DNA of 64,000 nt from Hasllibacter sp. MH4015. GTDB taxonomy: Bacteria; Pseudomonadota; Alphaproteobacteria; Rhodobacterales; Rhodobacteraceae. Shown here piece after piece: positions 16,755-41,463 of the stretch (positions are counted from its first letter, which is position 1; each line of letters opens with the position of its first letter). The stretch spans positions 2,477,875 through 2,541,874 of the forward strand of contig NZ_JAHTBK010000001.1 of assembly GCF_020177575.1 (NCBI RefSeq), in the 5' to 3' direction. A program made the translations under genes and the position numbers. The notes beneath the pieces were generated by a model. That model was not told where the DNA came from and searched no databases. It saw nothing but the letters and a program-made list of their open reading frames with translations.

Positions 16755-16923
16755 GCCCCGCCATCGACGGGCCGGGGACTGTCGATCCAACGGCGCTTCG
16801 GAGCGGTTTATGCCCGCCAAGCTCTTCAATTTTATGACCGAAGCACCCAGCCTCATCAAATCGACAGGCCGCCGGACGGCCCGTCGATGGCGGGGCGGGC
16901 AAGCCCGCTGTTAACCCGCTTGG
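16755..16923 (+). repeat. structured palindromic repeat, copy 1 (plus orientation)
   Basis: About 170 bp. Outer arms GCCCCGCCATCGACGGGCC (16755-16773) and its exact reverse complement (16878-16896); inner arms CTGTCGAT (16779-16786) and ATCGACAG (16860-16867); a tail hairpin GCGGGC-AA-GCCCGC, then CTGTTAACCCGCTTGG. Four relatives are at 16949, 20966, 36627 and 41296. Confidence 0.9.
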
Positions 16924-16948
16924 ACGCCTGCAGTTCCGTTTACCTCAG

Positions 16949-17117
16949 GCGCCATTGTCGGGCCGCGGTTCGGCGATCCAACATTCGCGCAGTGGCACTT
17001 TATACCGGCCAAGCCAGCGCACCCAACGAACGGAGCACCCAGTCTAACCATATCGCCGTGCCGGGGGGCGGCCCGACGATGGCGCGGCGGCGCAAACGCC
17101 GCTGTTAACGCGCTTGG
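16949..17117 (+). repeat. structured palindromic repeat, copy 2 (plus orientation)
   Basis: Directly follows copy 1, 25 bp away. Outer arms GCGCCATTGTCGGGCC (16949-16964) and GGCCCGACGATGGCGC (17070-17085), pairing fully with one G-T wobble; inner arms CGGCGAT (16971-16977) and ATCGCCG (17052-17058); tail hairpin GCGGCG-CAAA-CGCCGC; then CTGTTAACGCGCTTGG. It abuts the 3' end of the minus-strand gene ending at 17124. Confidence 0.88.
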
Positions 17118-17123
17118 TGAATT

Positions 17124-18266
17124 TCACGTCAGGAGCTTCAGCCAGTCCTGAGCCAACGAGGTTAGCACTCGGATGTTCGCCGGGTTGAGTAGCCAAACCG
17201 AGAGACCAAAGGCCGCATTAGCGAAGATCGCGAGTCCGACAACCTCCGCAGGGGAATAGTCTCTTGTTTGGAGAAGCATATATCCGGCGTTAAGTGCTTC
17301 GATGGCTTCTTCAATGCTTTCAGCGTTTGGCTCGGAAGACGATGCTTGATTATGGAGAGTCCGGATTGCATTCCAAATGGCAGTTACTTGCTGCACGGCA
17401 TCGGAATTCAGTCCGGTTGGTTCCGGCGGGCAATTGCCACATATCCCGAACCGGGTATCAAGGTTTGCGCCCGAACCATCCTCGATCTCTTCGATCTTTG
17501 AGAGTACGGCAAACCGCGCTTCAATCCGTGCGATCTCCTCCGACACCGCCTCTGGCCCGGCCTCCCAAATGTCATCGGGGATTAGTGCTACAGCCGTCCG
17601 AATTTCCTTCGGCAACGGTTCCCCCAAGACGACACTCCGATAGTAGCGCTCCCAAAAGGTCCACGGACTGTCTGGATCGCATAGTCGCGAGCCACTCAGA
17701 TGTCGATCCGCTTCACCTTGAAACTGAGCGAAGGGAAAGGAGCTAAGGCTCAACAAAGAATGCAAATAATCCAGCGAGCCGGGATAATGGATCGAACGGT
17801 CTGAGATGGAGTCGCCGGAACCGGAGTGGGCAGTCGACGCAAACGCTGCACTTGTTGCCTCAGCACAACACAGGGCGATATTCGCATCAGCTTTATGTAC
17901 GATCGCAACTGCACCTGCTGCAGCATCGCAGGCATAGGCGAACCCGTGATCTGGCAATATTTCTGAGTATGCACCGTATGCCTTTGAGATCACTTGATTG
18001 AGTGACCGCGTGATCGAAGTCGCAATCTTCTCACAGAGGTCCACAAAATCGGTCGATGCATTCTCTTGCGCAAGGCCAGCCATCAGAAGCGACCGCGCGC
18101 ACAGCAACGCAAGTTGTTCGTTCCAACGGTCACTTTCTGAGGCCATCGCCAGAGGGAAGGCTTGAATTGTGGACTTGTAAGCAATCCAGCGTAAATCCTC
18201 CGCAGATTGGGTCGTCAGCTCTGAGAGCAATGCGCTTCGAAGACTCGAGTATGTTGAATCGACCAC
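17124..18266 (-). CDS. hypothetical protein with FWxRYY...LG.PL..E...ALI...IW.xGPxxV motif
   Basis: A 380-residue protein of unknown function. Around residues 205-255 it carries a pattern I recognise from many alphaproteobacterial proteins without assigned role: WTFWERYYRSVVLGEPLP, VALIPDDIWEAGPEAVSEEI and ARIEARF. The N-terminal half is Ala/Ser-rich and helical, with several cysteines; a hydrophobic stretch (VVGLAIFANAAFGLSVWLL) near the C-terminus could be a membrane helix. G+C is about half in sampled lines, clearly below the surrounding genes. The GTG start at 18266 touches the doc stop codon, so it looks like the third gene of the phd-doc operon. Copy 2 of the repeat abuts its 3' end. 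Confidence 0.6.
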   Translation of the reverse strand: MVDSTYSSLRSALLSELTTQSAEDLRWIAYKSTIQAFPLAMASESDRWNEQLALLCARSLLMAGLAQENASTDFVDLCEKIATSITRSLNQVISKAYGAYSEILPDHGFAYACDAAAGAVAIVHKADANIALCCAEATSAAFASTAHSGSGDSISDRSIHYPGSLDYLHSLLSLSSFPFAQFQGEADRHLSGSRLCDPDSPWTFWERYYRSVVLGEPLPKEIRTAVALIPDDIWEAGPEAVSEEIARIEARFAVLSKIEEIEDGSGANLDTRFGICGNCPPEPTGLNSDAVQQVTAIWNAIRTLHNQASSSEPNAESIEEAIEALNAGYMLLQTRDYSPAEVVGLAIFANAAFGLSVWLLNPANIRVLTSLAQDWLKLLT

Positions 18267-18644
18267 CTACTTCCCCACCTCCCGCAACCACCCCGCCATC
18301 TCCTCCGCGCTCATCGCCCCCTGCGCCAGCGCGATCACCTTTGGCCCCATAACCTCCGGCTCGAACGCCATCCGCACGCCATTTGCCTGCAACACCACAA
18401 CCATCACCTCGTAAGCCGTCCGCTTGTTCGCATCGTTGAAGCAATGCCCTTGCGAAACCGCTTCGCCGTAGGCCGCAGCAAGATCGAACACATCCGCAAT
18501 CATCCCGTAGGCGATCCGATGATCGACCCGCGCCAACGTACCCTCCAGTGACTTGTCCAAAGCCAAGCCCTGCAGCTCGCCCGGGTTCAGCACAGCATCA
18601 TGGATCGCCACGACCAATTCGGTCGGCAAAAGAACCCAGCTCAT
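18267..18644 (-). CDS. doc: Fic/Doc-type death-on-curing toxin
   Basis: A 125-residue Doc-family toxin; known members phosphorylate EF-Tu and stop translation. The active-site motif [11 protein letters not shown] (His67 to Arg75) matches HxFx(D/N)ANKR in full. Length is typical. It overlaps the upstream antitoxin gene by 4 bases (ATGA), the usual phd-doc coupling, and the following unknown gene starts immediately after its stop. Confidence 0.93.
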
Positions 18645-18898
18645 TTGTCTTTCAGGTAATCAAGCACCGGCTGGTCGATGTTCTTGCGGTCTTGGAGAAT
18701 GGACATAACCTCCTCCATCGTCGCAAACCGAGGCTCCCCCGCACCCGTGTCCTGCACAAACTCCGCCGGCACCAAATATGCCACCGGCTTCGAGTTCTTC
18801 AAAATCGCCACCGGCTTGCCGTTCGCCCGCGCCAAAACCTTCTGCGGCTCGCGCAATTCGGTGATCGAGGCAATCTCATTCGTCAGCAAACGTGTCAT
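18641..18898 (-). CDS. phd: Phd/YefM-type antitoxin
   Basis: An 85-residue antitoxin that would bind the operon promoter and neutralise Doc. The N-terminus has the Phd fold pattern: [37 protein letters not shown]. The C-terminal part ([22 protein letters not shown]) is the probable toxin-binding helix. GGAGGG lies 7 bases upstream of the ATG. Its promoter must lie in the 126-bp gap shared with the divergent lepA. Confidence 0.92.
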
Positions 18899-19024
18899 AT
18901 CCTACCCTCCAAATTACATATCTCTATACACAAAATCTCGCACATCCGCAACGTCGCCGCACCCCTTTCCCAAACCGCGCCCGTAAGCTACATCCATGCC
19001 CAAGCCCTTAGGACGCCGACGCAC

Positions 19025-20824
<1,800 letters not shown>

Positions 20825-20965
20825 GCGCAACCAGCCTTAGTCGCGCGACAGGGAATTTCCACCAGTGGGGGAAAGCGACTTTTGCTCGCAGAAGTCTGCG
20901 GCCCCACCCCCTCACCATTCCAGACGCACCGCCAGCCCCAAGCCCTCTCAAACGCCCACCACAAA

Positions 20966-21136
20966 GCCCCGCCATCGACGGGCCTGGGTCCGGCGATCCA
21001 ACGCCCGCGCTCTGGCACTTTATCCCAGCCACACCATCGCACCCAACGAATGGAGCGCCCAGCCTCACCAAATCGCCGGGCCCCGGACAGGCCCGTCGAT
21101 GGCGGGGCGGGCGCTGCCCGCTGTTAACCCGCTTGG
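20966..21136 (+). repeat. structured palindromic repeat, copy 3 (plus orientation)
   Basis: Outer arms GCCCCGCCATCGACGGGCC (20966-20984) and exact complement (21090-21108); inner arms CCGGCGAT (20990-20997) and ATCGCCGG (21072-21079); tail hairpin GCGGGC-GCT-GCCCGC; ends CTGTTAACCCGCTTGG. It lies between lepA and the low-GC DUF5343 gene. Confidence 0.9.
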
Positions 21137-21180
21137 AACTAGGCATTGAAAACCGGATGTCGCGCCTTTACGGTCAACCT

Positions 21181-21831
21181 ATGGCACAAAAACTACCCTA
21201 TTTGGCGACCCCGGGAACTGTTCCAAAGGTTCTTGACAAAATTATTGAGGCAAAAACGCCTGAGCGATTCACAATTGATTTCCTAGGGACGCGACTCGGT
21301 TTCAAAGGAGGAAACGCGCGTCCAATCATACCGCTACTCAAGCGGATTGGCCTTTTAACAGAGGACGGAACCCCAACTGAACTCTACCGGAAATTTAGAA
21401 CCGAGGGTGGGCGCGGCAATGCAATGGCGAGCGCCATCAAGCAAGGTTACGACGAGCTATTTATAAGGAATGAATATGCTCATGATCTATCAAAGAATGA
21501 CCTGAAAGACTTGGTCTACGAAATTACTGGAGCGGAGAAAGGTAACACCGCGACCGAGTGCGTGATCTCTACATTCCTAAACTTAAAGGAATATGCCGAC
21601 TTTGAGTCTGACGCTATTGCTCAGACCGAAACCGATGCATACGAAGGCCGCACCGATACAATCGCGACCTCTGAACACGAAGACGTGCCGGGTCAAAACC
21701 CTTCTGACCAGCCATCAAACCAGAGAACTTTTGGACTTTCTTATACAATCAACATCAATCTTCCTGAAACCAAGGATGTTGAAGTATACAATGCCATCTT
21801 TGAGGCCATTGAGCGAAAGCTCCTCAAATAA
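21181..21831 (+). CDS. DUF5343 domain protein
   Basis: A 216-residue protein. The N-terminal 120 residues match the DUF5343 pattern: LPYLATPGTVPKVLDKIIEA, TIDFLGTRLGFKGGNARPII, PLLKRIGLLTEDGTPTELYRKFR, then the segment with IKQGYDELF. This looks like a winged-helix-type fold. The C-terminal part is acidic and polar, ending in a strand-helix segment (YTININLPETKDVEVYNAIFEAIERKLL). G+C is about 48% in sampled lines. The ATG at 21181 is chosen; another in frame at 21157 is possible. The next gene starts at the base after its stop (TAAATG). The pairing with a HEPN protein suggests a defence or toxin-antitoxin unit; this is inference. Confidence 0.75.
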   Translation: MAQKLPYLATPGTVPKVLDKIIEAKTPERFTIDFLGTRLGFKGGNARPIIPLLKRIGLLTEDGTPTELYRKFRTEGGRGNAMASAIKQGYDELFIRNEYAHDLSKNDLKDLVYEITGAEKGNTATECVISTFLNLKEYADFESDAIAQTETDAYEGRTDTIATSEHEDVPGQNPSDQPSNQRTFGLSYTININLPETKDVEVYNAIFEAIERKLLK

Positions 21832-22431
21832 ATGCCAATCAATCACAACCATCGCTATTTTGGGCTGAATAGTCTTTCGTTGGAAGCGGCAGTTCAAGAG
21901 GTGCAGCAGCGGCTCGGCTTAAGTCTCGGACCATCTCACAGCGATAAGTCATCCAGCGCAGCTAGTATGGACGCAACCTTTTACCCGCAGTTTTCGGAAA
22001 GAATTAGAACTGATGCGGAACGGATGGCGCGGAATTACATTCTCTTCTACAGTCTTGAAAATGCAATCCGAGATCTGATTGATGACGTTCTTTTCGACGC
22101 TATTGGTCCCGATTGGTGGGAAGAACCTGATGTAGTTCCCGAACCAGTTCACAAGAATGCGGATAAGAATAAGAAAAAAGAAGATGGCACCGGCGTCACG
22201 CCCAGGTCCGATCGGATGCTGGACTATACCAACTTTGGAGAACTTGGAGAAATCATAAAATCGAATTGGACGAATTTCGGAGATATCTTTCGCGATCGCA
22301 GGGCGGTTGAACGGATCATCGCAAATCTCAATACCTTGCGCGCTTCAATTGCACACTGCACTGCGCTTTCGGAAGACGAGGAACTTCGTCTTCATCTTTC
22401 TCTGAGAGACTGGTTCCGTCAACAGGCGTAG
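21832..22431 (+). CDS. Swt1-type HEPN domain protein (putative RNase)
   Basis: A 199-residue protein. Residues about 65-199 fit the Swt1-family HEPN domain: RNYILFYSLENAIRDLIDDVL, WWEEP, LDYTNFGELGEIIKSNW and the HEPN catalytic motif Rx4H as R170-ASIA-H175, followed by HLSLRDWF. HEPN domains with this motif are usually metal-independent RNases used in toxin-antitoxin and phage-defence systems. A Lys-rich loop (KNADKNKKKEDG) is inserted at about 108-118. Low GC like its partner. The start codon immediately follows the stop of the DUF5343 gene, so they form a two-gene unit. Its neighbour downstream is a normal-GC lipoprotein gene. Confidence 0.78.
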   Translation: MPINHNHRYFGLNSLSLEAAVQEVQQRLGLSLGPSHSDKSSSAASMDATFYPQFSERIRTDAERMARNYILFYSLENAIRDLIDDVLFDAIGPDWWEEPDVVPEPVHKNADKNKKKEDGTGVTPRSDRMLDYTNFGELGEIIKSNWTNFGDIFRDRRAVERIIANLNTLRASIAHCTALSEDEELRLHLSLRDWFRQQA

Positions 22432-22464
22432 GACTTCCCATCTTTTGCGTCTCTGCCTCCCCAC

Positions 22465-22812
22465 ATGCGCCTTCTCCTCGCCCTCCCGCTCCTCCTCCTC
22501 CCCGCCTGCGACGCGGGCCATCTCGGCAATCCGCTGCTCCTGCCCATCACAGGCCTCGCCACCGCCGTGGAGAACACCTCCTTCAACGCCCACCGCGCCC
22601 GCGTCTCCGACCTCCTCGCCGCCAACCAGCCCGCCGTCATGGCCGAGGCCCTCTCCACCCCCGGCCCTGCCCTCGCCGCCCTCTACCAGACCGCCCAGAT
22701 CCCCCCGGCCAGCCAACCCGCCATCCTCCGCGACCTGGCCGAGATCTCCGCCGCCCCGCCAGCCGATTGGGTCGAGCGCGCCACAACCATCGCCATGGTC
22801 CACTCCATTTAA
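22465..22812 (+). CDS. small putative lipoprotein
   Basis: A 115-residue protein with a lipoprotein signal (MRLLLALPLLLLPAC, lipidated Cys15) and an Ala-rich helical mature part without recognisable domain. Start ATG at 22465. Base composition returns to the high-GC norm here, so it probably is not part of the preceding low-GC pair despite being only 33 bp downstream. Function unknown. Confidence 0.6.
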   Translation: MRLLLALPLLLLPACDAGHLGNPLLLPITGLATAVENTSFNAHRARVSDLLAANQPAVMAEALSTPGPALAALYQTAQIPPASQPAILRDLAEISAAPPADWVERATTIAMVHSI

Positions 22813-22850
22813 CCTAAGGCTCCCATCCGCCGCCCCCACCCAACCCGCGT

Positions 22851-22894
22851 CTATACCAAACCTATACCAACCCTATACCCGTCCTATATCCGGC
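22851..22894 (+). repeat. four tandem 11-bp repeats
   Basis: CTATACC occurs at 22851, 22862 and 22873, and CTATATC at 22884, each followed by a 4-bp spacer (AAAC, AACC, CGTC, CGGC). The exact 11-bp spacing puts the motifs on nearly the same face of the helix. Confidence 0.85.
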
Positions 22895-23259
22895 ACCGAT
22901 TCAATATCTTGTAGGCCGTGATTCTGCACCCACGCCCCGAAAACCCCGCCCCGTCCGCTCAAATCGACCACGCCCGCACCCGCTCCTCCACAGGGTGAGA
23001 AAAACGTTAACGCTCAACCTTCTGGAGAGTGCATCCCCCTGCGCCACACAGGGTTCTCAACACTTTCATCCACAAGAAATCAGGCCCCCGTCGCGTTATT
23101 TCGTTGCCCGCCCGCTGCACTTGGGGAACAGTGATCTCACCGCAGCGAAGGACCTGTCCGACGCGGCGGGCGCCACGGCCTCCGAAGGTCGGAAGCGCGC
23201 CAGGTGGAGCTTCGGTTCAAACCAGCACGTGGAAGATCGAGGGCTTGGAAGACGGCTGG

Positions 23260-23449
23260 CAAGTCATTGACGTGCAAGTCATTTTCGAAGCAGCAGACCA
23301 TGGTGGGGCGTATAGGGAACCGCAAGGGGACCAAGCGTCAAGTAGGGACCCGCAAGGGTACCCGCGCACCGGAGAGGGAACGTGCAAGCGGACCTGATCC
23401 ATTCGAAGGCGTCAGGGTGGGGGCAACCCCAATGCATGGACCGCGTCCG
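23260..23449 (+). other. possible structured non-coding RNA segment
   Basis: Contains direct repeats at 23260/23275 and 23313/23343, then a potential long hairpin: CGGAC (23389) with GTCCG (23445), CCAT with ATGG, and a perfect TGGGG-GCAA-CCCCA stem with a GNRA tetraloop at 23418-23431. No known RNA family recognised; transcription is not shown. Confidence 0.25.
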
Positions 23450-23653
23450 AGCACCTGGCGCCTTCACCTTTTCCACACACGTGACACGAGAAAAAGGGCC
23501 CGGAACCTCAACGGCCCGAGCCCTCGCATCAGGAATGCAATCCGCGTCCATGCACCTGTGCGGTTTGCCTAACCCGCGCGTGCGGCCCGATCAAGCGCGT
23601 CGGGCCGATCTCGGGCCGTCCGCAACATTTACGCAACACCGCGCGGGCGGACA

Positions 23654-24415
23654 CTATTTCTGGGCCTCCGCGTCCAGAAACGCCCGGCACGCCGCCTCGA
23701 ATTCCCGCGGTTTCTCCGCGTGGAGCCAATGGCCTGCGCCCGGGATCTTCGCGAAGCGTGCGGCCGGGAAAAGCCGTTTGAATTCAGGCCGATGTTCCCG
23801 CGTAACGTATTCCGACGCCGCCCCCGACAGGACCAGAACCGGCCCGTCGAAGTGGCCTGGGACGTCCGGAAACCCCAAGATCGCCGCCATATCGGCCTCC
23901 AACTGATCCAGGTTCAGCCGCCAGGCCCGCGCCTTCACGTCCAGGGATTGCAACAGGAACGCCCGAACCCCTTGTTCCGAAATGACTTTTGCAAGCAGCC
24001 GGTCCGCATCCCCCCGCGTGGCGACCGCGCCCAGATCCACCGACCGCATCGCGTCGATCATCCCTTGCTGCGTGTGGGAATACGCCACAGGCGCAATATC
24101 CGCCACCACCAACCGCTTGACGAGATTGGGAAATTTCAGCGCAAGGACCATCGCGGCCTTGCCCCCCATGGAATGCCCGATGACCTCCGCGACGCCGCCA
24201 TAGGCCCCGATCACCTCGGCCAGATCCTCGGCCATCGCGTCATAGGAATGAGGCGCGGCCCAAGGACTGCTCCCATGATTGCGCATATCGACCGCGATCA
24301 CCCGGCGCGTATCGCTCAGCCGTTTGGCGATCACGCCCCAGTTCCGCGCCGAACCGAAAAGCCCGTGCACGATGATGAGGGGCGCACCTTGCCCGTATTC
24401 GACGACGCTCAACAT
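23654..24415 (-). CDS. alpha/beta-fold hydrolase, YbfF-type esterase
   Basis: A 253-residue esterase close to E. coli YbfF. It has the oxyanion segment VHGLFGSARNW, VDMRNHGSSP, the nucleophile elbow GHSMGGKAA, and a C-terminal GAGHWLH that supplies the catalytic His. No signal peptide, so cytosolic, acting on short acyl esters or thioesters. The ATG at 24415 gives MLSVVEYGQGAP. Monocistronic; its 3' end faces the gene-poor stretch at 22.8-23.65 kb. Confidence 0.9.
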   Translation of the reverse strand: MLSVVEYGQGAPLIIVHGLFGSARNWGVIAKRLSDTRRVIAVDMRNHGSSPWAAPHSYDAMAEDLAEVIGAYGGVAEVIGHSMGGKAAMVLALKFPNLVKRLVVADIAPVAYSHTQQGMIDAMRSVDLGAVATRGDADRLLAKVISEQGVRAFLLQSLDVKARAWRLNLDQLEADMAAILGFPDVPGHFDGPVLVLSGAASEYVTREHRPEFKRLFPAARFAKIPGAGHWLHAEKPREFEAACRAFLDAEAQK

Positions 24416-24514
24416 GGGCCGAGCCTAGGGCGAAACGCGCGGAATACCAACGGGTTGAGCGATGGGCGTCCGAGCGGTATCCTGGCCGGGTTCAAAGGCT
24501 GGGGGGCCGATTCC

Positions 24515-24886
24515 ATGGACCACGCGCGCTATATCGAAGTGACCGACGATCTTCGTGACCTGATCGCCGAACGCCTGTCGATCCGCGCGAAAAGCTTCCC
24601 CAGGGCAGTGCGAAAGGCCGGGCGGTTGTTGCCGCCCAATGCCCGCGCCGCGGCGGACGCCCTGATACAGCTTGAACCTCGCGTATCGCATCCCAAGCTC
24701 GCCGTCCGCACCGACCCTGCACAGGTCGACCACGCGGCGGAGACGATCCGCACCGCCCTTTCGGCCCACCGCCCCGGCGCGCGCGCCAGCCGTCAGCGCA
24801 GCTTGTTCATGGCGGAAGTCGGGTTTCGGGCCCTGGTCCTCATCGGGGCGGGGCTCGCATTTCTTCAGTGGCACAGCCCGGTCTGA
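24515..24886 (+). CDS. conserved hypothetical protein with C-terminal membrane helix
   Basis: A 123-residue protein. The soluble N-terminal part (MDHARYIEVTDDLRDLIAERLSIRAKSF...RKAGRLLPPNARAAADALIQLE) is helical and basic, and the last 20 residues (ALVLIGAGLAFLQWHSPV) form one hydrophobic helix. It is therefore probably a tail-anchored or single-pass membrane protein. No enzyme motif. Divergent from the esterase gene, with convergent pirin downstream. Gene packing and codon use look real. Confidence 0.62.
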   Translation: MDHARYIEVTDDLRDLIAERLSIRAKSFPRAVRKAGRLLPPNARAAADALIQLEPRVSHPKLAVRTDPAQVDHAAETIRTALSAHRPGARASRQRSLFMAEVGFRALVLIGAGLAFLQWHSPV

Positions 24887-24956
24887 CCCGGCATTCTTTA
24901 TGGATCGGCGGAGCGGAGGACCTGTCCCCCGCTCTGCACCTGTCACATGACCCGCC

Positions 24957-25868
24957 TCAGTGGGCGGGCTGGATGAACGTCCCGTTGCGCAGATCCTGCA
25001 TGGCCTGTTGCAGCTCGGCCTGGGTATTCATCACGATGGGTCCGTGCCAGGCCACCGGCTCCTCGATGGGGGCGCCGGAGACGAGCAGGAAGCGCACCCC
25101 GTCGGGGCCGGCCTGAACCGTCACCTCGTCGCCTGAGCCGAAGCGGATCAGGGTGCGGTCGCCGGAAAGGTCGCGGATATTCACCTCCTGCCCCATGACC
25201 TCCTTTTCGAGCAGCACGCCCGAGGGCGCGGAGGCGTCAGTGAATGTCGCAGAGCCTTGGAAGACATAGGCAAAGGCGCGGCGATAGGTGTCGATCCGAA
25301 AGGTCTTGCGGACGCCCGCAGGCACGGAGATGTCGAGGTATTGGGGATCGGCGGCGATGCCATCGACCGGGCCACGCTTGCCCCAGAACTCTCCCGTGAT
25401 CACGCGCACATGGGTGCCGTCATCGTCGGTCACTTCGGGAATGTCGGCGCCCTGGATGTCTTGGTACCGCGGGGCGGTCATCTTCTGGCTGCCGGGTAGA
25501 TTCCCCCAGAGCTGGAACCCATGCATCTGCCCCTTGGCGTTCCCGAGCGGCATTTCCTGATGCATGATGCCGGAGCCTGCCGTCATCCACTGGACCGATC
25601 CCGGCCCAAGCCGACCCGTGTTCCCGAGGCTGTCGGAATGTTCCACCGTGCCTTCCAGCACGTAGGTGATCGTCTCGATCCCCCGGTGGGGGTGCCACGG
25701 GAACCCCTTGGCGTAAAAGGCCGGGTCGTCGTTGCGGAAATCATCGAACAGAAGGAAGGGATCAAGCTCCGACGGGTCCTGGAACCCGAAGGCGCGGTGC
25801 AGGTGAACGCCGGCTCCTTCCATGGTGGGCATGGCCGGGCGCGTTTCCAGAATGGGACGAATGGACAT
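24957..25868 (-). CDS. pirin family protein
   Basis: A 303-residue bicupin. The N-terminal cupin has the pirin metal site and neighbourhood: DPFLLFDDFRND, FPWHPHRGIETITYVLEGTVEHSDS and GSGIMHQEMP, with His, His, His and Glu as iron ligands. The C-terminal cupin covers about residues 170-290. Bacterial pirins act as quercetin dioxygenase-like enzymes or redox-sensitive regulators; which applies here cannot be read. Monocistronic. An 88-bp gap separates it from the divergent membrane-protein gene. Confidence 0.92.
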   Translation of the reverse strand: MSIRPILETRPAMPTMEGAGVHLHRAFGFQDPSELDPFLLFDDFRNDDPAFYAKGFPWHPHRGIETITYVLEGTVEHSDSLGNTGRLGPGSVQWMTAGSGIMHQEMPLGNAKGQMHGFQLWGNLPGSQKMTAPRYQDIQGADIPEVTDDDGTHVRVITGEFWGKRGPVDGIAADPQYLDISVPAGVRKTFRIDTYRRAFAYVFQGSATFTDASAPSGVLLEKEVMGQEVNIRDLSGDRTLIRFGSGDEVTVQAGPDGVRFLLVSGAPIEEPVAWHGPIVMNTQAELQQAMQDLRNGTFIQPAH

Positions 25869-25956
25869 ATCAAGGCCTCCTTGCGGCGTGTCTTGCCCCT
25901 AGGTAGGACGGGCGAGACCCTGCGCCTAGTCTGCATGGGTCCACGGAAGGTGTGCG

Positions 25957-26469: not shown

Positions 26470-26526
26470 CAAGACCGCCGCGCGGGGCGCGCTAGAAGGC
26501 GCATTCCCCTTACCGCCCCGCCCGGG

Positions 26527-30487: not shown

Positions 30488-30500
30488 GAGGAGACCTGAT

Positions 30501-32867: not shown

Positions 32868-32875
32868 AGGCCGCT

Positions 32876-33139: not shown

Positions 33140-36063
33140 GGCTGGATGGCAAGGGCCTGATCGACCGTGACACGCCCGTCCGGTTCCACTTCGACGGCAA
33201 GGCTTACGAAGGCTTCAGGGGCGACACCGTCGCCTCCGCCCTGCTGGCCAATGGCGTCAAGCTGATGGGCCGCTCGTTCAAGTATCACCGCCCGCGCGGC
33301 GTGATGACCGCCGGGTCGGAAGAACCCAACGCCCTGATCCAGGTCGGCGCGGGCGACGCGATGTTGCCCAATGTCCGTGCGACGGTGCAGGAGATCTTCA
33401 CCGGTCTTGAGACGCGCAGCCAGAACCGCGTCGGCCCCCTCGACCGCGATCTGATGAGCGTGAATGACCTGCTGTGGCCCTGGCTCGGCGCGGGCTTCTA
33501 TTACAAGACGTTCATGTGGCCCCGCGCCTTCTGGGAAAAGGTCTATGAACCGACGATCCGCCGCGCCGCAGGCCTAGGCCGGATGACGAAGGGCGCCTCC
33601 CCCGAGGAAAGCGAACGCGCCTTCGCGTTTTGCGACGTGCTGGTGATCGGCGGCGGCCCGGCGGGCCTGATGGCGGCACTGACCGCGGCACGCTCCGGCG
33701 CGGACGTGATTTTGCTGGAGGAGAGCGCGGAACTGGGCGGGCGGCTCCTGTCCGACGGCGAGGATGTCGACGGCCTGCCCGGCCCGGTCTGGGTTCAGGA
33801 CATCCGCGACGCCTTGGAAGAGACCGGTCGCGTCCGCATCATGACGCGCACCACCGCAACCGGAATCTATGACGGCCTCACCTTCGGCGCGGTGGAGCGG
33901 GTCGGCAACCACCTGCCGCGCGCGCAAGATCTTCCACAAGAATGCTTCTGGCGCATCCGGGCGGGTCAGGCCGTGCTCGCCGCAGGCGCATTGGAGCGCC
34001 CCATCGCCTTCCCGATGAATGACCGCCCCGGCATCATGCTCGCCTCCGCCATCCGGACCTATGTGAATCGCTACGGCGTCACGCCCGGCGAAAACGTGAC
34101 GCTCTTCACCACCAACGATGACGCGCATCGTACGGCGGTGGAACTGGTAGATGCAGGGATCAAGGTCACGCTTCTCGACAGCCGGGTCGGGACGGAGGCG
34201 AAGGGCGATTACCGCGTAATCGACGGCGCGCAGGTGATCGGCACCACGGGCCGCCGCGCGCTCACGGAAATCACCTACCGCACCGCCTCCGGCACCCATA
34301 AGCTCGAAACGGATTGCCTTGGCGTGTCGGGCGGCTGGAACCCCTCCGTCCACCTGACTTGCCACACGGGCGCGCGGCCTGTCTGGGACGAGGCGATCCA
34401 CGCCTTCGTCCCCGCTCAAAACGCGATCAAGGGTCTGCATGTGGCGGGTGCATGCACCGGCGCGTTCTCCACCACCGACGCCCTGACACAAGGCGTGGAG
34501 GCCGCCAGCGCGGCCCTCAAGGCTCTCGGCAAACGGGTCCGCAAGCCGGATCTGCCCCAAGCCAGCGACGAGGCAGGCACCACCTCCGCGCTCTGGAGCG
34601 TCGAGGGCAAAGGCCGCGCCTGGCTCGATTTCGCCAATGACGTCACAACCAAGGACGTCAGGCAATCGGCCCGCGAGGGTTTCAAATCCGTCGAACATAT
34701 GAAGCGCTACACCACGCAGGGCATGGCACCGGACCAGGGCAAAAGCTCCAATATCGGCGCGCTGGCGGTGCTGGCCGATGCCACCGGCCGCGGCATTCCC
34801 GAGACCGGAACCACCACCTACCGCCCGCCCTTCACGCCCGTGGCGCTTGGCACGATGGCCGCAGGCGCGCAGGGCAAGGGCTTTTCGCCCGAACGCTTCA
34901 CAACCTCCCACAAGGCCGTCACCGCGCGCGGCGCGCCGATGATCGAGGCGGGCCTGTGGTATCGCCCCTCCTACCTGCCCGCGCCGGGTGAAACCCACTG
35001 GCGCCAAAGCTGCGACCGCGAGGTCAATATGGTCCGCAACGCCGTGGGCGTGGTCGATGTCTCGACCCTTGGCAAGATCGAGATCATGGGCAAGGATGCC
35101 GGGGCCTTCCTCGATTTCTTGTATACGAACATGTTCTCCACCCTGAAGCCGGGCCGTGTCCGCTATGGCCTGATGCTGCGCGAAGACGGGCACGTCATGG
35201 ATGACGGCACCACGGCCTGCCTCGGCGAGGGCCACTACGTCATGACCACGACCACCGCCGCCGCCGGGCAGGTCATGGCGCATATGGAATTCGTCTCTCA
35301 GGTCCTGCGCCCCGATTGGGACGTGCGGTTTGTGTCAGTGACAGAGCAATGGGCGCAATTCTCCGTCGCCGGGCCACGGGCGCGGGACCTGCTCAACGGC
35401 GTACTCGACACGCCCATCGACAATGACACCTTCCCCTTCATGCAATGCGGCACCGCCCGCATTCACGGCATCGACGGCCGCCTCTTCCGCATCTCCTTCT
35501 CCGGCGAACATGCCTATGAGATCGCGGTGCCAAGCACCTATGGCGACGCGCTCTACCGCGATCTGGTTGCCCGGGCCGAGGCGCTTGGCGGCGGCGGCTA
35601 TGGGATGGAGGCGCTGAATGTCCTCAGGATCGAGAAGGGCTTCATCACCCATTCCGAAATCCACGGGCGGGTGACGGCCTTCGATATTGGCATGCAGGGC
35701 ATGCTGTCGAAGAAGAAGGATTTCATCGGCAAGGCGGCAGCCACCCGCCCCGGCCTGCTGGAGGAGGATCGCGAGCGGCTGATCGGCCTGAAACCGGTAG
35801 GCGCGGTCAAGGAACTCACCGCCGGGGCGCACCTGTTTGAACAAGATGCCGAGGCCACGCGCGTCAACGATCTGGGTTATGTCACGTCCGTCGGGTACTC
35901 GCCCACGCTGGGGCATTTCATCGGGCTGGGGTTCCTGCGCGACGGGCCAAGCCGCATCGGGCACCACATGAAAATGGTCGACCATCTGCGCGGCGTGACG
36001 GCGGAGGTTGAGATCTGCGATCCGGTGTTCCTCGAGCCGGAAGGAGGACGCGCCCGTGGCTAA
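33136..36063 (+). CDS. soxA: sarcosine oxidase subunit alpha
   Basis: Large subunit, 975 residues. N-terminal ferredoxin-like segment (FHFDGKAYEGFRGDTVASALL; SFKYHRPRGVMTAGSEEPN), a Rossmann NAD-binding domain (VLVIGGGPAGLMAALTAARSG, about residues 171-191), and a C-terminal aminomethyltransferase-like folate domain (MVRNAVGVVDVSTLGKIEIMG; GLMLREDGHVMDDGTT; GYGMEALNVLRIEKGFITHS). It accepts the methylene group from the beta subunit onto tetrahydrofolate. Overlaps soxD at its start and soxG at its end. Confidence 0.97.
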   Translation: MRLDGKGLIDRDTPVRFHFDGKAYEGFRGDTVASALLANGVKLMGRSFKYHRPRGVMTAGSEEPNALIQVGAGDAMLPNVRATVQEIFTGLETRSQNRVGPLDRDLMSVNDLLWPWLGAGFYYKTFMWPRAFWEKVYEPTIRRAAGLGRMTKGASPEESERAFAFCDVLVIGGGPAGLMAALTAARSGADVILLEESAELGGRLLSDGEDVDGLPGPVWVQDIRDALEETGRVRIMTRTTATGIYDGLTFGAVERVGNHLPRAQDLPQECFWRIRAGQAVLAAGALERPIAFPMNDRPGIMLASAIRTYVNRYGVTPGENVTLFTTNDDAHRTAVELVDAGIKVTLLDSRVGTEAKGDYRVIDGAQVIGTTGRRALTEITYRTASGTHKLETDCLGVSGGWNPSVHLTCHTGARPVWDEAIHAFVPAQNAIKGLHVAGACTGAFSTTDALTQGVEAASAALKALGKRVRKPDLPQASDEAGTTSALWSVEGKGRAWLDFANDVTTKDVRQSAREGFKSVEHMKRYTTQGMAPDQGKSSNIGALAVLADATGRGIPETGTTTYRPPFTPVALGTMAAGAQGKGFSPERFTTSHKAVTARGAPMIEAGLWYRPSYLPAPGETHWRQSCDREVNMVRNAVGVVDVSTLGKIEIMGKDAGAFLDFLYTNMFSTLKPGRVRYGLMLREDGHVMDDGTTACLGEGHYVMTTTTAAAGQVMAHMEFVSQVLRPDWDVRFVSVTEQWAQFSVAGPRARDLLNGVLDTPIDNDTFPFMQCGTARIHGIDGRLFRISFSGEHAYEIAVPSTYGDALYRDLVARAEALGGGGYGMEALNVLRIEKGFITHSEIHGRVTAFDIGMQGMLSKKKDFIGKAAATRPGLLEEDRERLIGLKPVGAVKELTAGAHLFEQDAEATRVNDLGYVTSVGYSPTLGHFIGLGFLRDGPSRIGHHMKMVDHLRGVTAEVEICDPVFLEPEGGRARG

Positions 36064-36601
36064 TCTGACTGCAAAGACCGCCTTTGACGACCTGCTGCCG
36101 ATCACAAATGGCGATGTGACGCTGAGCGAAATCCCCTTCGATACCATAACCTGGGTCGCGCCCTACAACGGCAAGGCTGCCGCCGTTTCCAAGGCGTTGG
36201 ACAAGCAGATCGGGGCGGATTTCCCCGGACCGAACCGCACAACCTGCAGCGCCGATGCGCGGGCGGTCTGGACCGGGCCGGAGCAGGCCTTCGTCCTCGG
36301 CAAGCCGCTCAAGCCCATCACCGGGGCCGCGATGGCGGATCAGACCAGCGCCTGGGCCGCCTGCGCCCTCGAAGGGGATCACGCGGCGGAGGTTCTGGCC
36401 CGGCTGATGCCGATCGACCTGCGCGAGGAGGTCTTCGCCGTCGGCCATGCCGCGCGGACGGTTCTTGGCCACATGAACTGCGTGCTGATGCGCACGGGCG
36501 CGGCGCGCTACGAGATCATGGTGTTTTGGTCCATGGCATCCACCTGCGCCCACGAGATCGAACGCGCGATGCGGATGGTCGCGGCGCGGGCAGACGCCTG
36601 A
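36056..36601 (+). CDS. soxG: sarcosine oxidase subunit gamma
   Basis: Structural gamma subunit, 181 residues, with the family pattern WTGPEQAFVLG, TSAWAACALEGDHAAEVLARLMPIDL and HMNCVLMRTGAARYEIMVFWSMASTCAHEIERAM. The start is GTG at 36056, with AAGGAGG 8 bases upstream, overlapping the soxA stop by 8 bases. Last gene of the sox operon; copy 4 of the structured repeat begins 26 bp after the stop. Confidence 0.93.
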   Translation: MANLTAKTAFDDLLPITNGDVTLSEIPFDTITWVAPYNGKAAAVSKALDKQIGADFPGPNRTTCSADARAVWTGPEQAFVLGKPLKPITGAAMADQTSAWAACALEGDHAAEVLARLMPIDLREEVFAVGHAARTVLGHMNCVLMRTGAARYEIMVFWSMASTCAHEIERAMRMVAARADA

Positions 36602-36626
36602 GCGCAGTCCGCCAAGCCGACGACAA

Positions 36627-36792
36627 AAGCGGGTTAACAGCGGCGCAGCCGCCCCGCTATCGACGGGCCGTCTGGCGGCCTGTCGATTTGGATGCGCTTG
36701 ATGCATCCTTCGTTGGGTGGAGGGGCTTGGCTGGGATCAAGTGCTCCGAACCGGCGTTGGATCGACAGTCCCCGGCCCGTCGATAGCGGAGC
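36627..36792 (-). repeat. structured palindromic repeat, copy 4 (minus orientation)
   Basis: Reverse-oriented relative. Outer arms GCCCCGCTATCGACGGGCC (36651-36669) and GGCCCGTCGATAGCGGAGC (36774-36792), 18 of 19 paired; inner arms CTGTCGAT (36680-36687) and ATCGACAG (36761-36768); tail AAGCGGGTTAACAGCGG at 36627. Lies between soxG and dnaG. Confidence 0.88.
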
Positions 36793-36891
36793 TCCACGAC
36801 ACACACCCAATTCTCCAACCCGTCCAACCGGTTAACCAAACGCCCGTTTCGCCATCTGGACACTCCCCCGGCGCGCCCCGATATTGGTCCC

Positions 36892-38838
36892 ATGAGCCTG
36901 CCCCCCGGATTCCTTGATGAGCTTCGAAACCGCACCTCGCTGGCGCAGGTCGTAGGCCGCAAGGTCGTCTGGGACAATCGCAAATCCAACCAGGCCAAGG
37001 GCGACATGTGGGCGCCCTGCCCGTTCCATCAGGAAAAGACGGCCAGCTTCCACGTGGAGGACCGCAAGGGCTTCTATTATTGCTTCGGATGTCACGCGAA
37101 GGGCGACATGATCTCTTTCGTACGCGAGACGGAGAATGTGGGATTCATGGAAGCCGTCGAAATCCTCGCCCGGGAAGCCGGCATGACGATGCCCGAACGC
37201 GACCCGAAGGCGCAGGAGAAGGCGGATCGGAACGCGGAATTGGCGAAAGTGACGGAGGCCGCGGTTTCCCATTTCCGCCTGCAACTGAAGACCCAGGCGG
37301 CGGCCGAGGCGCGCGCCTATCTGGAACGGCGCGGCATGGACGAGGCGACGCTGGATCGGTTCGAGATCGGCTTCGCCCCCAATGCCCGCGACGCCACCTT
37401 TCAGGCCCTGACCGGCAAGGGCCTCAACCCCGAGCATCTGGTCGAGGCGAACATCGCCGCGCAACCCGACGATGGTGGCGCGCCCTATGATGCGTTCCGC
37501 GACCGGATCATCTTCCCGATCCGCGATCCCCGCGGCCGCTGCATCGGGTTCGGTGGCCGGGCGATGGACCCGAACGCGCGCGCCAAATACCTGAACAGCC
37601 GCGAAACCCCGCTCTTCGACAAGGGCCGCGCGCTCTACAATCACGGCCCCGCGCGGGAAGCGGCGGGCAAAGGCCAGCCGTTGATCGTGGCCGAAGGCTA
37701 CATGGATGTCATCGCGCTGGTGAAAGCCGGGTTCGAGGCCGCCGTCGCCCCCCTCGGGACGGCGATCACCGAGGATCAGCTGCGGCTGCTCTGGCGCATT
37801 TCCGACGAACCCATCGTGGCTTTGGATGGCGACAAGGCGGGGCTGCGGGCGGCGATGCGGCTGGTCGATCTGGCCCTGCCCCTTCTGGAAGGCGGCAAGT
37901 CCCTGCGTTTCGTGATCCTGCCCGAAGGCCAGGACCCCGATGATCTGATCCGGGCGCGGGGCGCGGGCGCGATGCAGGCGCTGCTCGACAAGGCCATGCC
38001 GATGGTCCACCTGCTCTGGCAGCGGGAAACGGAGGGGCAGGTCTTCGACAGCCCCGAACGCCGCTCCGCCCTCGACGCCCGCCTGCGCGAGGCGCTCAAG
38101 CGGATCGGTGATCCCGGCCTGCGCCGCCACTACGCCGATGCGATCGCGGAGATGCGCCGCGCGCTGTTCCGTCCGCAATGGAACGGTCCGCAACGGCGGG
38201 GCGGACGGCCGGGCCAGTGGAAGGGCCGTGGTTTCGCCGAGGCTCAGGCCCCGCTGGCCGCCACCCGCGCCAAGGCCGGCGCCCTGAACGGAGAGGTTTT
38301 GCGCACCGGGCTGATCATCGCCACGCTGATCCGGTTCCCCGACCTCATCGACGCCTATGAAGCGGAACTGGACCGCCTGTCACCGCGCAATCCCGACCAT
38401 CGCGCGCTGGCCCGGCACCTGCTTGGCACCACAACCCGCGACCCAGGCACGCTTTTCGACGAAATTTCCGCCTCTCCCCTGCGCGCGGCTCTTGAAAGCC
38501 TGATGGGGCTTTCCCACTTGGCGATCACACCGTTCCTTCTGGGTGAGGGCGATCCCGACCGTGCGGCCACTTGCCTGGCCGAGGAATTCGTCAAAATCGA
38601 CGCCGCTCGCGCGATCGAGGAGGAGATGGTGGAAGCCGCCCAGGACTTGGGCGATGTCACCGATGACGAGGATCACACGCTTGCCTTCCGCCTGACCGAG
38701 GCGGTGCGCGGAAAACACGCCGCGCTGCACCCCAAGGGAGAGGAGAATGCAGAGCAATTCGGCGAAACCGCCGAGGCACGCTCTGCCTTCCACCAGTTGC
38801 TCTCCTCCGCCGGACAGGGCAAGAAAACAAGGAACTAG
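36892..38838 (+). CDS. dnaG: DNA primase
   Basis: Synthesises RNA primers for replication. The 648-residue product has the N-terminal zinc ribbon (C43-P-F-H46 and C64-F-G-C67), the RNA polymerase core, and the TOPRIM motif with VAEGYMDVIAL at about residues 265-275 and ALDGDKAG. The C-terminal helicase-binding region is present. ATG at 36892. Followed after 94 bp by rpoD, the classic macromolecular-synthesis order. Copy 4 of the repeat lies 99 bp upstream. Confidence 0.97.
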   Translation: MSLPPGFLDELRNRTSLAQVVGRKVVWDNRKSNQAKGDMWAPCPFHQEKTASFHVEDRKGFYYCFGCHAKGDMISFVRETENVGFMEAVEILAREAGMTMPERDPKAQEKADRNAELAKVTEAAVSHFRLQLKTQAAAEARAYLERRGMDEATLDRFEIGFAPNARDATFQALTGKGLNPEHLVEANIAAQPDDGGAPYDAFRDRIIFPIRDPRGRCIGFGGRAMDPNARAKYLNSRETPLFDKGRALYNHGPAREAAGKGQPLIVAEGYMDVIALVKAGFEAAVAPLGTAITEDQLRLLWRISDEPIVALDGDKAGLRAAMRLVDLALPLLEGGKSLRFVILPEGQDPDDLIRARGAGAMQALLDKAMPMVHLLWQRETEGQVFDSPERRSALDARLREALKRIGDPGLRRHYADAIAEMRRALFRPQWNGPQRRGGRPGQWKGRGFAEAQAPLAATRAKAGALNGEVLRTGLIIATLIRFPDLIDAYEAELDRLSPRNPDHRALARHLLGTTTRDPGTLFDEISASPLRAALESLMGLSHLAITPFLLGEGDPDRAATCLAEEFVKIDAARAIEEEMVEAAQDLGDVTDDEDHTLAFRLTEAVRGKHAALHPKGEENAEQFGETAEARSAFHQLLSSAGQGKKTRN

Positions 38839-38844
38839 GCCTTT

Positions 38845-38905
38845 CCGAATCACTGATTCGGGTTAGAGTCAGTTGCAGATGCAAGGAAACGACTCACCCC
38901 GAATC
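38845..38905 (+). promoter_or_regulatory. cluster of five GANTC (CcrM) sites with a 17-bp palindrome
   Basis: GAATC at 38847, GATTC at 38855, GAGTC at 38866, GACTC at 38891 and GAATC at 38901. The first two lie inside the perfect palindrome CCGAATCA-C-TGATTCGG (38845-38861). Located between the dnaG stop and the rpoD start. Confidence 0.6.
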
Positions 38906-38932
38906 GTTTTCAAGCCCAAGGGAATGGACCGC

Positions 38933-40945
38933 ATGGCCAAAGACACCGACGATCGAAAACAGGACGGCGACGACCAGGAACTTGGTCTCGACATGAGCCA
39001 GACCGCCGTCAAGAAGATGATCGCCGACGCCCGAACGAAGGGCTACATCACCTACGATCAGCTCAACACGGTCCTCCCGCCCGAACAGGTCTCCTCCGAA
39101 CAGATCGAGGACGTGATGTCGATGCTCAGCGAGATGGGCATCAACATCATCGAGGATGAAGAGGCCGAGGAAGGCGAGGACACCAAGGGCTCCACCGATG
39201 TGGTGGAAACCTCCGGCTCACGCGAAGTGGCCGTCGCCGCGACGGAAACGGAGAAGCTGGACCGCACCGACGACCCCGTGCGCATGTACCTGCGCGAGAT
39301 GGGTTCCGTTGAACTCCTCTCGCGCGAGGGGGAGATCGCGATTGCCAAGCGGATCGAGGCCGGGCGCAACACGATGATCGCGGGCCTGTGCGAAAGCCCG
39401 CTCACTTTCCAGGCTATCACGATCTGGCGCGACGAACTTCTGGACGAAGACATCTTGCTGCGCGACGTGATCGACCTCGACACCACCTTCGGCCGCCAGA
39501 TGGGCGAGGAAAGCGACACCCCCGTGGTGCAGCCGGGCTCCAACCCCGCGCCCGCCCCCGGTGCCGCCCCCGCCGCCGCGCCCGAGGCCAAGAAGGAAGA
39601 GCCCGAGCAGGAACTCGACGCCGACGGCAACCCCATCCAGAAGGATGAGGACGAGGATGAGGACGAGGCCGCGAACATGTCGCTGGCCGCGATGGAGGCC
39701 GCGCTGAAGCCGCAGGTCCTTGCCACGCTCGACCGCATCGCGGGCGATTACATCAAGCTCAGCGAAATGCAGGACAGCCGGATTTCGGCGACCCTTAATG
39801 AGGATGACAGCTTCTCCGCCAAGGCCGAGAAGGAATATCAGCACCTGCGCTCCGAGATCGTGGAACTGGTCAACGAGTTGCACCTGCACAACAACCGGAT
39901 CGAGGCGTTGGTCGATCAGCTTTACGGCATCAACCGCCGGATCATGTCCATCGACTCGTCCATGGTGAAACTCGCCGACCAGGCCCGCATCAACCGCCGC
40001 GAATTTATCGAGGAATATCGCGGGCAGGAACTTGATCCCACCTGGATGGAGCGCATGGGCGAGAAGTCCGGGCGCGGCTGGCAGGCGCTGATGGAACGCT
40101 CCTCCGGCAAGATCGAAGAATTGCGCGGTGACATGGCCCAGGTCGGCCAATATGTCGGCCTCGACATCCCCGAATTCCGCCGCATCGTGAACCAGGTCCA
40201 GAAGGGCGAGAAAGAAGCCCGCCAGGCCAAGAAGGAAATGGTGGAGGCCAACCTGCGCCTCGTGATTTCCATCGCGAAGAAATACACCAATCGCGGGTTG
40301 CAATTCCTAGACCTGATCCAGGAAGGCAACATCGGCCTGATGAAGGCCGTCGACAAATTCGAATACCGCCGCGGTTACAAGTTTTCCACCTACGCGACGT
40401 GGTGGATCCGTCAGGCGATCACGCGGAGCATCGCCGACCAGGCCCGCACGATCCGCATCCCGGTCCACATGATCGAGACGATCAACAAGCTGGTTCGCAC
40501 CGGCCGCCAGATGCTCCACGAAATCGGCCGCGAGCCGACGCCGGAAGAACTGGCCGAAAAGCTGCAGATGCCGCTGGAGAAGGTCCGCAAAGTGATGAAG
40601 ATCGCCAAGGAGCCGATTTCGCTGGAGACGCCGATTGGCGACGAGGAAGACTCACAGCTTGGCGATTTCATTGAGGACAAGAACGCCGTCCTGCCGCTCG
40701 ATTCGGCCATTCAGGAGAACCTGAAAGAGACGACGACGCGGGTTCTGGCGAGCTTGACGCCGCGTGAGGAGCGGGTTCTGCGGATGCGCTTCGGTATCGG
40801 TATGAATACGGACCACACGCTTGAGGAAGTGGGCCAGCAGTTCAGCGTGACCCGCGAGCGTATCCGGCAGATCGAGGCGAAAGCGCTGCGGAAGCTGAAG
40901 CATCCGTCGCGGAGCCGGAAGTTGCGGTCGTTCTTGGATCAGTAG
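38933..40945 (+). CDS. rpoD: RNA polymerase sigma factor RpoD (sigma-70)
   Basis: Primary sigma factor, 670 residues from ATG at 38933. Region 1.2 ([30 protein letters not shown]), a non-conserved segment holding a low-complexity Pro/Ala run ([19 protein letters not shown]) and an acidic run ([11 protein letters not shown]), region 2 ([36 protein letters not shown]), region 3, and region 4 ([27 protein letters not shown]). An upstream in-frame ATG at 38873 would place the GANTC cluster inside the coding region; AAGGGA in front of 38933 and the family N-terminus favour the shorter form. Confidence 0.96.
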
Positions 40946-40948
40946 AAA

Positions 40949-41107
40949 ATGGCCAAGTCTGACGCCGCCGTTTCGCAACTCATTCATGATTTGGTTGGCC
41001 TGATTGAGGCTAAGCATCTTGCTACGAGTCAAGCAATTCAGCTCTTGGCCTACGCGATTGAGCAAATGAGGCGACCCGGCTTCCAGTTGGATAGGCCAAT
41101 GAGCTAG
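40949..41107 (+). CDS. small hypothetical protein downstream of rpoD
   Basis: A 52-residue reading frame (MAKSDAAVSQLIHDLVGLIE...IEQMRRPGFQLDRPMS) starting 3 bases after the rpoD stop. Composition is helical and lower in GC than rpoD. The next frame (+2, open from about 41090 to the TAG at 41214) continues in similar style (ELDKLRLGNEMMTDDNDVF...LISNLKDE), so the pair could be one gene broken by a frameshift. No family recognised. Confidence 0.35.
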   Translation: MAKSDAAVSQLIHDLVGLIEAKHLATSQAIQLLAYAIEQMRRPGFQLDRPMS

Positions 41108-41295
41108 ACAAGTTGCGTCTCGGCAATGAGATGATGACGGACGATAACGATGTATTCCGGCAGCGTGTTTCGGAAGCACTCGGCGAGTTAATTTCGAATC
41201 TGAAAGACGAATAGCGCCCGACGTCGCGTTTAAATTGGGATCGACCAAGCCGCGGTACGGACAGGAGCACGCCAAGCTTCGCACATTGTTCCCTA
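41108..41295 (+). pseudogene. possible frameshifted 3' part of the small post-rpoD gene
   Basis: A reading frame ending at the TAG at 41212-41214 (EMMTDDNDVFRQRVSEALGELISNLKDE) has a coding-like helical character but only a 25-residue ATG-started form. It may be the displaced tail of the preceding 52-residue gene. The rest, up to the repeat at 41296, shows nothing else. Weakly supported. Confidence 0.2.
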
Positions 41296-41463
41296 GGGCG
41301 GGTTAACAGCGGCGCAGCCGCCCCGCCATCGTCGGGCCTCCCCACGGCCCGGCGATTTGGCTGCCGCACCCACTCCGCCCGTTAAGTCACAAAGACCTGG
41401 CCACCATAAACTGCCAAACACGACCTGTCCGGATCGCCGCACCGAGGCCCGACACCGCCTTGG
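41296..41463 (-). repeat. structured palindromic repeat, copy 5 (minus orientation, partly decayed)
   Basis: Tail GGGCGGGTTAACAGCGG at 41296; arm GCCCCGCCATCGTCGGGCC (41320-41338), of which only GTCGGGCC still pairs with GGCCCGAC (41446-41453); inner arms CCGGCGAT (41349-41356) with ATCGCCG (41433-41439) intact. Confidence 0.8.

Follow-up and report, generated by a model that had tools for sequence, protein, structure and literature searches.

The five repeats in a 64,000-nucleotide stretch of Hasllibacter sp. MH4015 (contig NZ_JAHTBK010000001.1, positions 2,477,875 to 2,541,874 of the forward strand; hereafter the window) are members of a large, non-coding repeat family of about 170 nt, apparently undescribed, whose mostly intergenic copies occur in marine and related bacteria. 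We found that one internal strand of the element, Y, pairs both with a strand at the 5' end (X) and with a strand at the 3' end (Z). Because of its fold, the logic of this pairing, its ends, its distribution, and its differing occupancy and orientation at sites shared between genomes, we read the element as a non-autonomous, non-coding mobile repeat resembling ERIC or miniature inverted-repeat transposable elements (MITEs), whose folded strand would be the substrate for spreading. Both the mobility and the role of Y are what we infer, and we give this reading a probability of about 0.5.

A sequence-only reading of the window had located the five copies, and alignment recovered all of them at those positions and on those strands:

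16754..16923, + strand: copy 1 (alignment and covariance model)
16945..17117, + strand: copy 2, 21 nt past copy 1 and on the identical strand (alignment and covariance model)
20965..21136, + strand: copy 3, with lepA (19025-20824, +) on one side and a DUF5343 gene (21133, +) on the other
36625..36793, - strand: copy 4, with a GCV_T-domain gene (36056-36601, +) on one side and dnaG (36892, +) on the other
41294..41465, - strand: copy 5, downstream of the main sigma-70 factor gene (38924-40945, +), rpoD by its Pfam domains

The copies align over their full length with a mean column identity of 78%. The covariance model R1 was built from alignment A2, which holds 18 of the 21 places found in the host genome by blastn (L015, L028 and L029 were dropped). 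With R1 the five copies, all within its 18 training copies, scored E 2.1e-29 to 1.9e-25, and R1 also matches 26 genomes outside its training set. Together these E-values and matches indicate that the window copies are not chance resemblances. Neither blastn nor R1 detected a sixth copy in the window. Compared with shuffled sequences, the + strand of the element folded with z-scores of -4.55 (copy 1), -2.54 (copy 2) and -5.98 (copy 3); since the element is a palindrome, the opposite strand of copy 3 folds well too (z -4.38). The paired variants from which covariation had first been proposed are present in the outer helix (GCCATCGAC/GTCGATGGC in copies 1 and 3, GCTATCGAC/GTCGATAGC in copy 4, GTCGGGCC/GGCCCGAC in copies 2 and 5), the inner helix (CTGTCGAT/ATCGACAG in copies 1 and 4 versus GGCGAT/ATCGCC in copies 2, 3 and 5) and the tail hairpin (GCGGGC/GCCCGC in copies 1 and 3, GCGGCG/CGCCGC in copy 2, shorter in copies 4 and 5). 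The end CTGTTAACxCGC, which had been called invariant, occurs in all five copies but marks only their subfamily, the majority end of the wider family being TTGATTCCGCGC. The central spacer proved less uniform than claimed, with copies 1, 4 and 5 deviating from GGCACTTTAT.

The wider comparison used alignment A3, the source of a broader model, R2. It contains 92 copies: L009, which was included manually, and 91 from a pool of 118 that were full-length and non-redundant; the 27 copies dropped were mostly insert-bearing or weak. From 5' to 3' the element consists of AAG, X, the 5' arms of an outer helix (P1) and an inner helix (P2), a core, the 3' arms of P2 and P1, Y, a tail hairpin, a linker, Z and NGGGG. 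Copy 3 illustrates this order, all on the + strand:

20966..20985: 5' arm of P1, starting with GCCCCGC, which is strand X (sequence; pair counts)
20986..20997: 5' arm of P2 (sequence; pair counts)
21014..21023: core box GGCACTTTAT, conserved across A3
21067..21077: box ACCAAATCGCC, conserved in A3, its last bases being part of P2
21072..21083: 3' arm of P2 (pair counts)
21089..21108: 3' arm of P1 (pair counts)
21102..21106: strand Y (GCGGG), able to pair with X or Z (pair counts)
21107..21121: tail hairpin GCGGGC-GCT-GCCCGC (sequence)
21128..21132: strand Z (CCCGC), close to the 3' terminus (pair counts; end mapping)

Strand Y runs on from P1 without a break, and the linker of about six bases between the tail hairpin and Z reads TTGATT, or TGTTAA in the subfamily of the window. 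The core boxes conserved in A3 are CACTTTAT, GCCAA and ACCAAATCG.

Covariation in A3 is strong: we found 290 two-sided compensated cells versus 81.2 after shuffling, spread over 20 of 30 pairs, when Y was paired with Z. When X-Y replaced Y-Z the count was 276 versus 90.0, over 19 of 30 pairs. X-Y was paired at five or more of six positions in 78 of the 92 copies, and Y-Z in 86. Overall pairing was 92.7%, compared with 34-45% after the helices were slid (P1, 1113/1196 cells; P2, 931/1011; Y-Z, 512/550), and the 27 dropped copies, when added back, paired at 294/338, 278/295 and 151/162, i.e. 87-94% per helix. The claim that the fold is under selection is therefore supported on this broad set; selection on each copy in place finds no support in recent orthologues, although stems changed less in older pairs, as described below. 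What is selected may be the capacity for spread, and not a job done at the site.

Pairs of G and U outnumber A-C mismatches in A3 (48 versus 14 in P1, 75 versus 13 in P2), an excess that points to the + strand as the folded one. This is less clear in G030, a copy-rich relative, where A-C exceeds G-U over all 30 pairs (85 versus 38) and the well-paired core has 27 G-U and 17 A-C. GC-rich palindromes are expected to undergo template-switch correction, and compensation might then have arisen without selection, by correction of an imperfect DNA palindrome that is itself a passive relic. The A-C excess in G030 fits such a process, and so do the extra hairpins and internal deletions of some copies, which point to a rearrangement-prone sequence. 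Template switching predicts strand symmetry, yet G-U prevails in A3 and in the G030 core, and the process leaves both the conserved core boxes and the at least 149 copies in G030 (R2) unexplained. We consider it an improbable source of the pattern.

The alternative pairing was examined further in 125 copies of G030 (set A5), taken from forty 20-kb windows around known copies and aligned to the structure of R2. One Y-Z pair divides these copies into two classes, being C-G in 60 and G-C in 60 (other in 2, gapped in 3). In the first class, 60 of 61 copies have 8 or 9 of the 9 X-Y positions paired; in the second, 57 of 58 copies have no more than 5 paired, leaving 3 copies without a class and 3 unscorable. 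Thirteen stretches had suggested that X-Y was lost throughout this genome; the 125 copies overturned this, as about half keep it. Diversity was 0.092 at paired and 0.277 at unpaired positions of the element. In each of 37 pairs of neighbouring copies within 500 bp, both copies lie on the same strand; all 36 pairs with both classes known are of equal class (23 and 13), and 31 of the 37 have start spacings of 229-297 bp. Likeness was 0.866 within pairs versus 0.833 and 0.845 between pairs. Partners thus barely exceed copies from different pairs in similarity, so that neighbouring copies are not fresh duplications. A GTAG-type hairpin in the direction of the element occupies the spacer of 27 of the 37 pairs (L304-L343), with exact GTAGGGTGGG in 25; two spacers hold exact GTAGGGTGGG on the other strand. 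This hairpin, of type GTAGGGTGGGTTTCCAACCCACC, is REP-like and a separate repeat from the element.

A tentative and rather doubtful extension of these data is that a single internal guide strand defines both ends of a mobile element by alternative pairing. Guide and ends would then evolve together into mutually separate classes within one genome, possibly with mobility borne by RNA. In IS200/IS605 elements each end has its own guide, and end marking by one guide would, if true, differ from that rule.

The ends were mapped in 132 de-duplicated copies. In the wider family the element begins with AAG-CCGCGC and finishes with CCGCGC-NGGGG, and conservation begins and ends sharply. X and Z are direct repeats, and no inverted repeat links the two outermost ends. 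We found no target duplication beside the ends of these copies: the twelve strongest signals were X and Z themselves (identical 6-mers in 59 copies versus 27.5 expected). Among 11,250 duplication tests, the top signal outside the element lay about 30 bases away (3-mers, 13 of 132 versus 2.9), with none stronger at the ends, and the strongest signal among 104 copies of G030 was 12 versus 3.5 (3-mers). The mapped element has no GTAG end, and the consensus has no U-run after the 3' hairpin. A defined length, a fold and a conserved core would also suit a multi-copy family of trans-acting small RNAs. In the 132 copies no conserved sequence, and so no shared promoter, precedes the 5' end within 60 bases; copy number varies greatly, and stems are not constrained in recent orthologues, which makes such a family very unlikely.

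Several variants and neighbours were noted alongside. By eye, an extra hairpin of about three kinds (CATGCC..GGCATG, CACATTGC..GCAATGTG and CTCTCGGC..GCCTGCCGGGC) sits in the 3' arm of P1 in L084, L087, L092, L093, L109, L127, L129, L138, L145, L146, L148 and L149. Two plasmids of Pseudosulfitobacter pseudonitzschiae (L170 and L171) carry short forms with P1 and tail and no core, at the place that holds a full copy in a related plasmid. In Sulfitobacter and Pseudosulfitobacter an intergenic sequence of the form GCGGAAAGGGCTC trails the element (L089, L104, L105, L108, L129, L131 and L172), mostly with TTCGCTGC nearby after it. Beside copies 1 and 2 of the window, a 380-aa open frame with no Pfam match adjoins a Fic/DOC-domain gene (17124-18266 and 18267-18644, both - strand); the two occur in part of the genus only, mostly at low identity.

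A covariance-model search of the host genome and other Rhodobacteraceae, as the sequence-only reading had proposed, and of further families gave R1 matches in 27 of 81 genomes. These comprise all 13 genomes of the host genus (the host included) and 14 of 36 other family members, and none of the 32 genomes from other families matched. The number of matches is uneven, from 1 to 34 per positive genome, and R2 found at least 149 in G030, where 150 candidates were scored. In the host itself R1 found 31 matches on the element strand, including one partial match, at E-values of 1.6e-4 or lower, after which the list continues with weak opposite-strand shadows of known copies. R2 found 29 at E 1e-7, with one listed match on a 29-kb second contig, presumably a plasmid. 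When R2 was run on a draw of 289 genomes from the class, three matched (the host, G081 and G187), all of them Rhodobacteraceae, and two further listed family members were negative; only the nine best candidates per genome were scored, so that weak matches could escape, and 266 non-matching genomes are of unlisted kinship. A gapped-pattern search returned 77 stretches in named genomes such as Roseovarius, Sulfitobacter, Pseudosulfitobacter, Lentibacter, Litoreibacter and Pseudooceanicola, genera which we take to belong to Rhodobacterales. The element is present in 87 plasmid records, all Pseudosulfitobacter by first word, and another query copy adds two plasmids of Salipiger abyssi. Phage records gave no element by blastn, and IMG/VR no match to one exact gapped pattern. 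As far as tested, the family is confined to Rhodobacteraceae.

We then considered where copies lie relative to genes, which were called with a home-made codon model. In a mixed set of 149 non-redundant copies, 44 lie at convergent and 7 at divergent sites; tandem gene pairs hold 26 in sense and 48 in antisense, 2 (of 127 placed) overlap called genes, and 22 are at locus edges. We had entertained a sense position behind a gene for every copy, an arrangement that these counts and the Pfam/NCBIfam gene identities ruled out. The placement bears on a cis-acting RNA switch or 3' untranslated region element, in which alternative X-Y and Y-Z folds, one of them sequestering the 3' hairpin, would act on the upstream transcript by controlling its termination, processing or stability. 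Mutually exclusive covarying helices with one common strand, a G-U excess on one strand, conserved core boxes, the slower change of stems at older shared sites (below) and the preference for convergent over divergent sites all accord with such a switch. Since antisense outnumbers sense in tandem pairs, however, 55 of 125 intergenic copies have no upstream gene reading the + strand, and a sense-strand role in mRNA is not apparent. The missing U-run, the lack of X-Y in 57 of 58 copies of one G030 class and the absence of stem constraint in recent orthologues likewise argue against a switch, and we regard this explanation as unlikely.

Sites shared within the genus show both differing occupancy and differing orientation. 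Upstream of dnaG the host, G009 and G010 carry a copy in one orientation and G007 in the opposite one, next to the end of the upstream gene; no copy was found there in the nine other genomes of the genus. Downstream of rpoD there are full-length copies in the host, G010, G005 and G007, an insert-bearing copy in G009 and two weak matches in G011, with flanks that are mostly unalignable. Upstream of isocitrate dehydrogenase (NF006156) the elements of G009 and G010 are opposite in orientation and identical at 111 of 158 positions, and their flanks match at 87-91%, which reflects either separate insertions or an inversion with fast change. In five recent same-orientation pairs of G009 and G010, 16 of 299 paired and 33 of 593 unpaired positions have changed (odds ratio 0.96). 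These are five of eight pairs, two of the five with one flank unmatched; the rpoD pair (insert in G009), L259/L256 (5' part not orthologous) and L251/L252 (opposite orientation) were left out. This result suits copies that drift after insertion.

The mobile-repeat reading can be put as a scheme. The folded + strand, as RNA or single-stranded DNA, would be recognised in trans by a factor during copying of the element. Y would mark both ends by pairing with each, and we propose that a change in Y would for this reason persist only if the ends changed to match. Copies would be tolerated mostly between genes and then largely drift.

Several observations weigh against this scheme. Stems changed less than the remainder at older shared sites: 1/60 versus 13/118 in the dnaG pair of host and G010 (p 0.04), 10/60 versus 37/120 in the lepA pair (p 0.05) and 24/360 versus 192/721 over six rpoD pairs. 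This could mean that copies function where they sit, or that a pool preserving the fold gave rise to separate insertions. A search for a clean empty site, with junctions exact to the base, found none among plasmids of Pseudosulfitobacter pseudonitzschiae, Sulfitobacter and Ruegeria or between G009 and G010; at the sites compared, insert size and flanks differ beyond the element, or a remnant occupies the other site. The closest pair of copies in G030 is 93% identical, with no near-identical copies. Avoidance of genes and of divergent sites is also not seen in G030, or gene calls are poorer there (127 copies: 30 at convergent and 25 at divergent sites, 33 in sense, 25 in antisense, 11 overlapping called genes, 3 at edges). 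Finally, the element is absent from the flanks examined at four of four intact loci of the transposases considered next.

Genes for REP-associated tyrosine transposases were identified in G030, G021, G003 and G008 (NF047646, 161.9-183.8 bits, cut-off 80), and two of these loci have GTAG-tagged hairpins beside them:

L344:1396-1890, + strand: REP-associated tyrosine transposase of G030 (hairpins GTAGGGTGCGTGC...)
L165:1378-1851, - strand: REP-associated tyrosine transposase of G003 (hairpins GTAGGGTGCACATTC...)

A previous conclusion that element-rich genomes have no Y1 transposase was overturned: both G030 and G021 have such a gene, and PF01797 gives REP-associated transposases scores that are too low. 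In the host genome this model had no match at E 1e-3, but since it also scores the G030 transposase below its cut-off, a host gene may have escaped it. A broken C-terminal remnant of such a transposase (L003:1390-1488, -) lies about 10-15 bases from the host copy near C1:258273.

These enzymes are candidates by presence alone. In the corresponding explanation a Y1 (HUH) transposase, either REP-associated or of the IS200/IS605 type, would mobilise the element with Y as its guide. This accords with a guide strand that pairs close to the ends, the lack of duplications there, one folded strand, and the transposase genes and remnant just described. It also accords with a weak orientation bias against the leading strand, 36/55 after collapsing tandem copies (p 0.03; host 20/30, G021 15/20 with 20 listed of 33, G001 5/9 with 9 listed of 10). 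Because GC skew in the host gave too faint a signal for locating origin and terminus, gidA served instead, with skew for the G021 terminus; in G030 local skew agrees with strand in 57 of 97 copies. The bias is suggestive only, and its sign is opposite to the lagging-template rule for orientation of IS200/IS605. The G003 and G030 loci are flanked by GTAG-tagged hairpins instead of the element, which itself has no GTAG end. Mobilisation by such an enzyme therefore seems improbable to us.

The element shares traits with several known systems. In IS200/IS605 there are likewise an internal guide strand near the ends, hairpins and no target duplication; here one strand serves both ends, and no linked transposase is known. 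Integron attC sites have RYYYAAC and GTTRRRY ends and form cassette arrays. By eye, the element lacks these ends, GTTAAC being found only in the subfamily of the window and on the 3' side only. ERIC is a small palindromic intergenic repeat of enterobacteria. In the available parts of the reports on ERIC/IRU and RU-type mobile repeats (PMC2759123, PMC2229807), these are 100-170 bp, intergenic, palindromic and dispersed, with no long open reading frame known. As a descriptive kind the element is ERIC-like, i.e. dispersed, mostly intergenic, palindromic, non-coding and present in many genomes of one clade. It differs in sequence and hosts, in that one internal strand can form either of two covarying pairings, one with each end, and in its conserved core. 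REP/REPIN sequences, linked to REP-associated tyrosine transposases (PMC2817692, PMC3116915, PMC3733652, as far as these sources were available), are also high-copy intergenic hairpins in mosaic arrays with a hairpin near the end, but a REP measures 20-40 bp and has a GTAG or CGTC tag at its end (PMC3733652). At about 170 nt, with AAG...NGGGG ends and no transposase beside it, the element is not a REP. MITEs (PMC10969869, PMC5896051, in part) are similarly short, non-autonomous and dispersed; the element has neither terminal inverted repeats nor end duplications, X and Z being direct repeats, and does not belong to them.

The view that no named family matches the repeat holds as far as tested. 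Rfam gave no match in the window at the gathering score, and a permissive search of 16000-42000 returned one unrelated sub-threshold match (AsrC, E 0.098, 19042-19104). No description of the element appears in the searched portions of the literature, including PMC2864571, PMC8632094, PMC4809877, PMC2267715 and PMC3733652, supplements lying outside the search.

In a bacterial group that is already well studied, this would be an additional large family of structured repeats. It is relevant to annotation and to rearrangement as well, as flank similarity breaks at the element end in three of seven aligned pairs of G009 and G010 (L189/L191, L259/L256 and L253/L254). A guide strand and ends that co-vary over many copies amount to a natural experiment, in which the recognition and copying of such repeats are directly testable.

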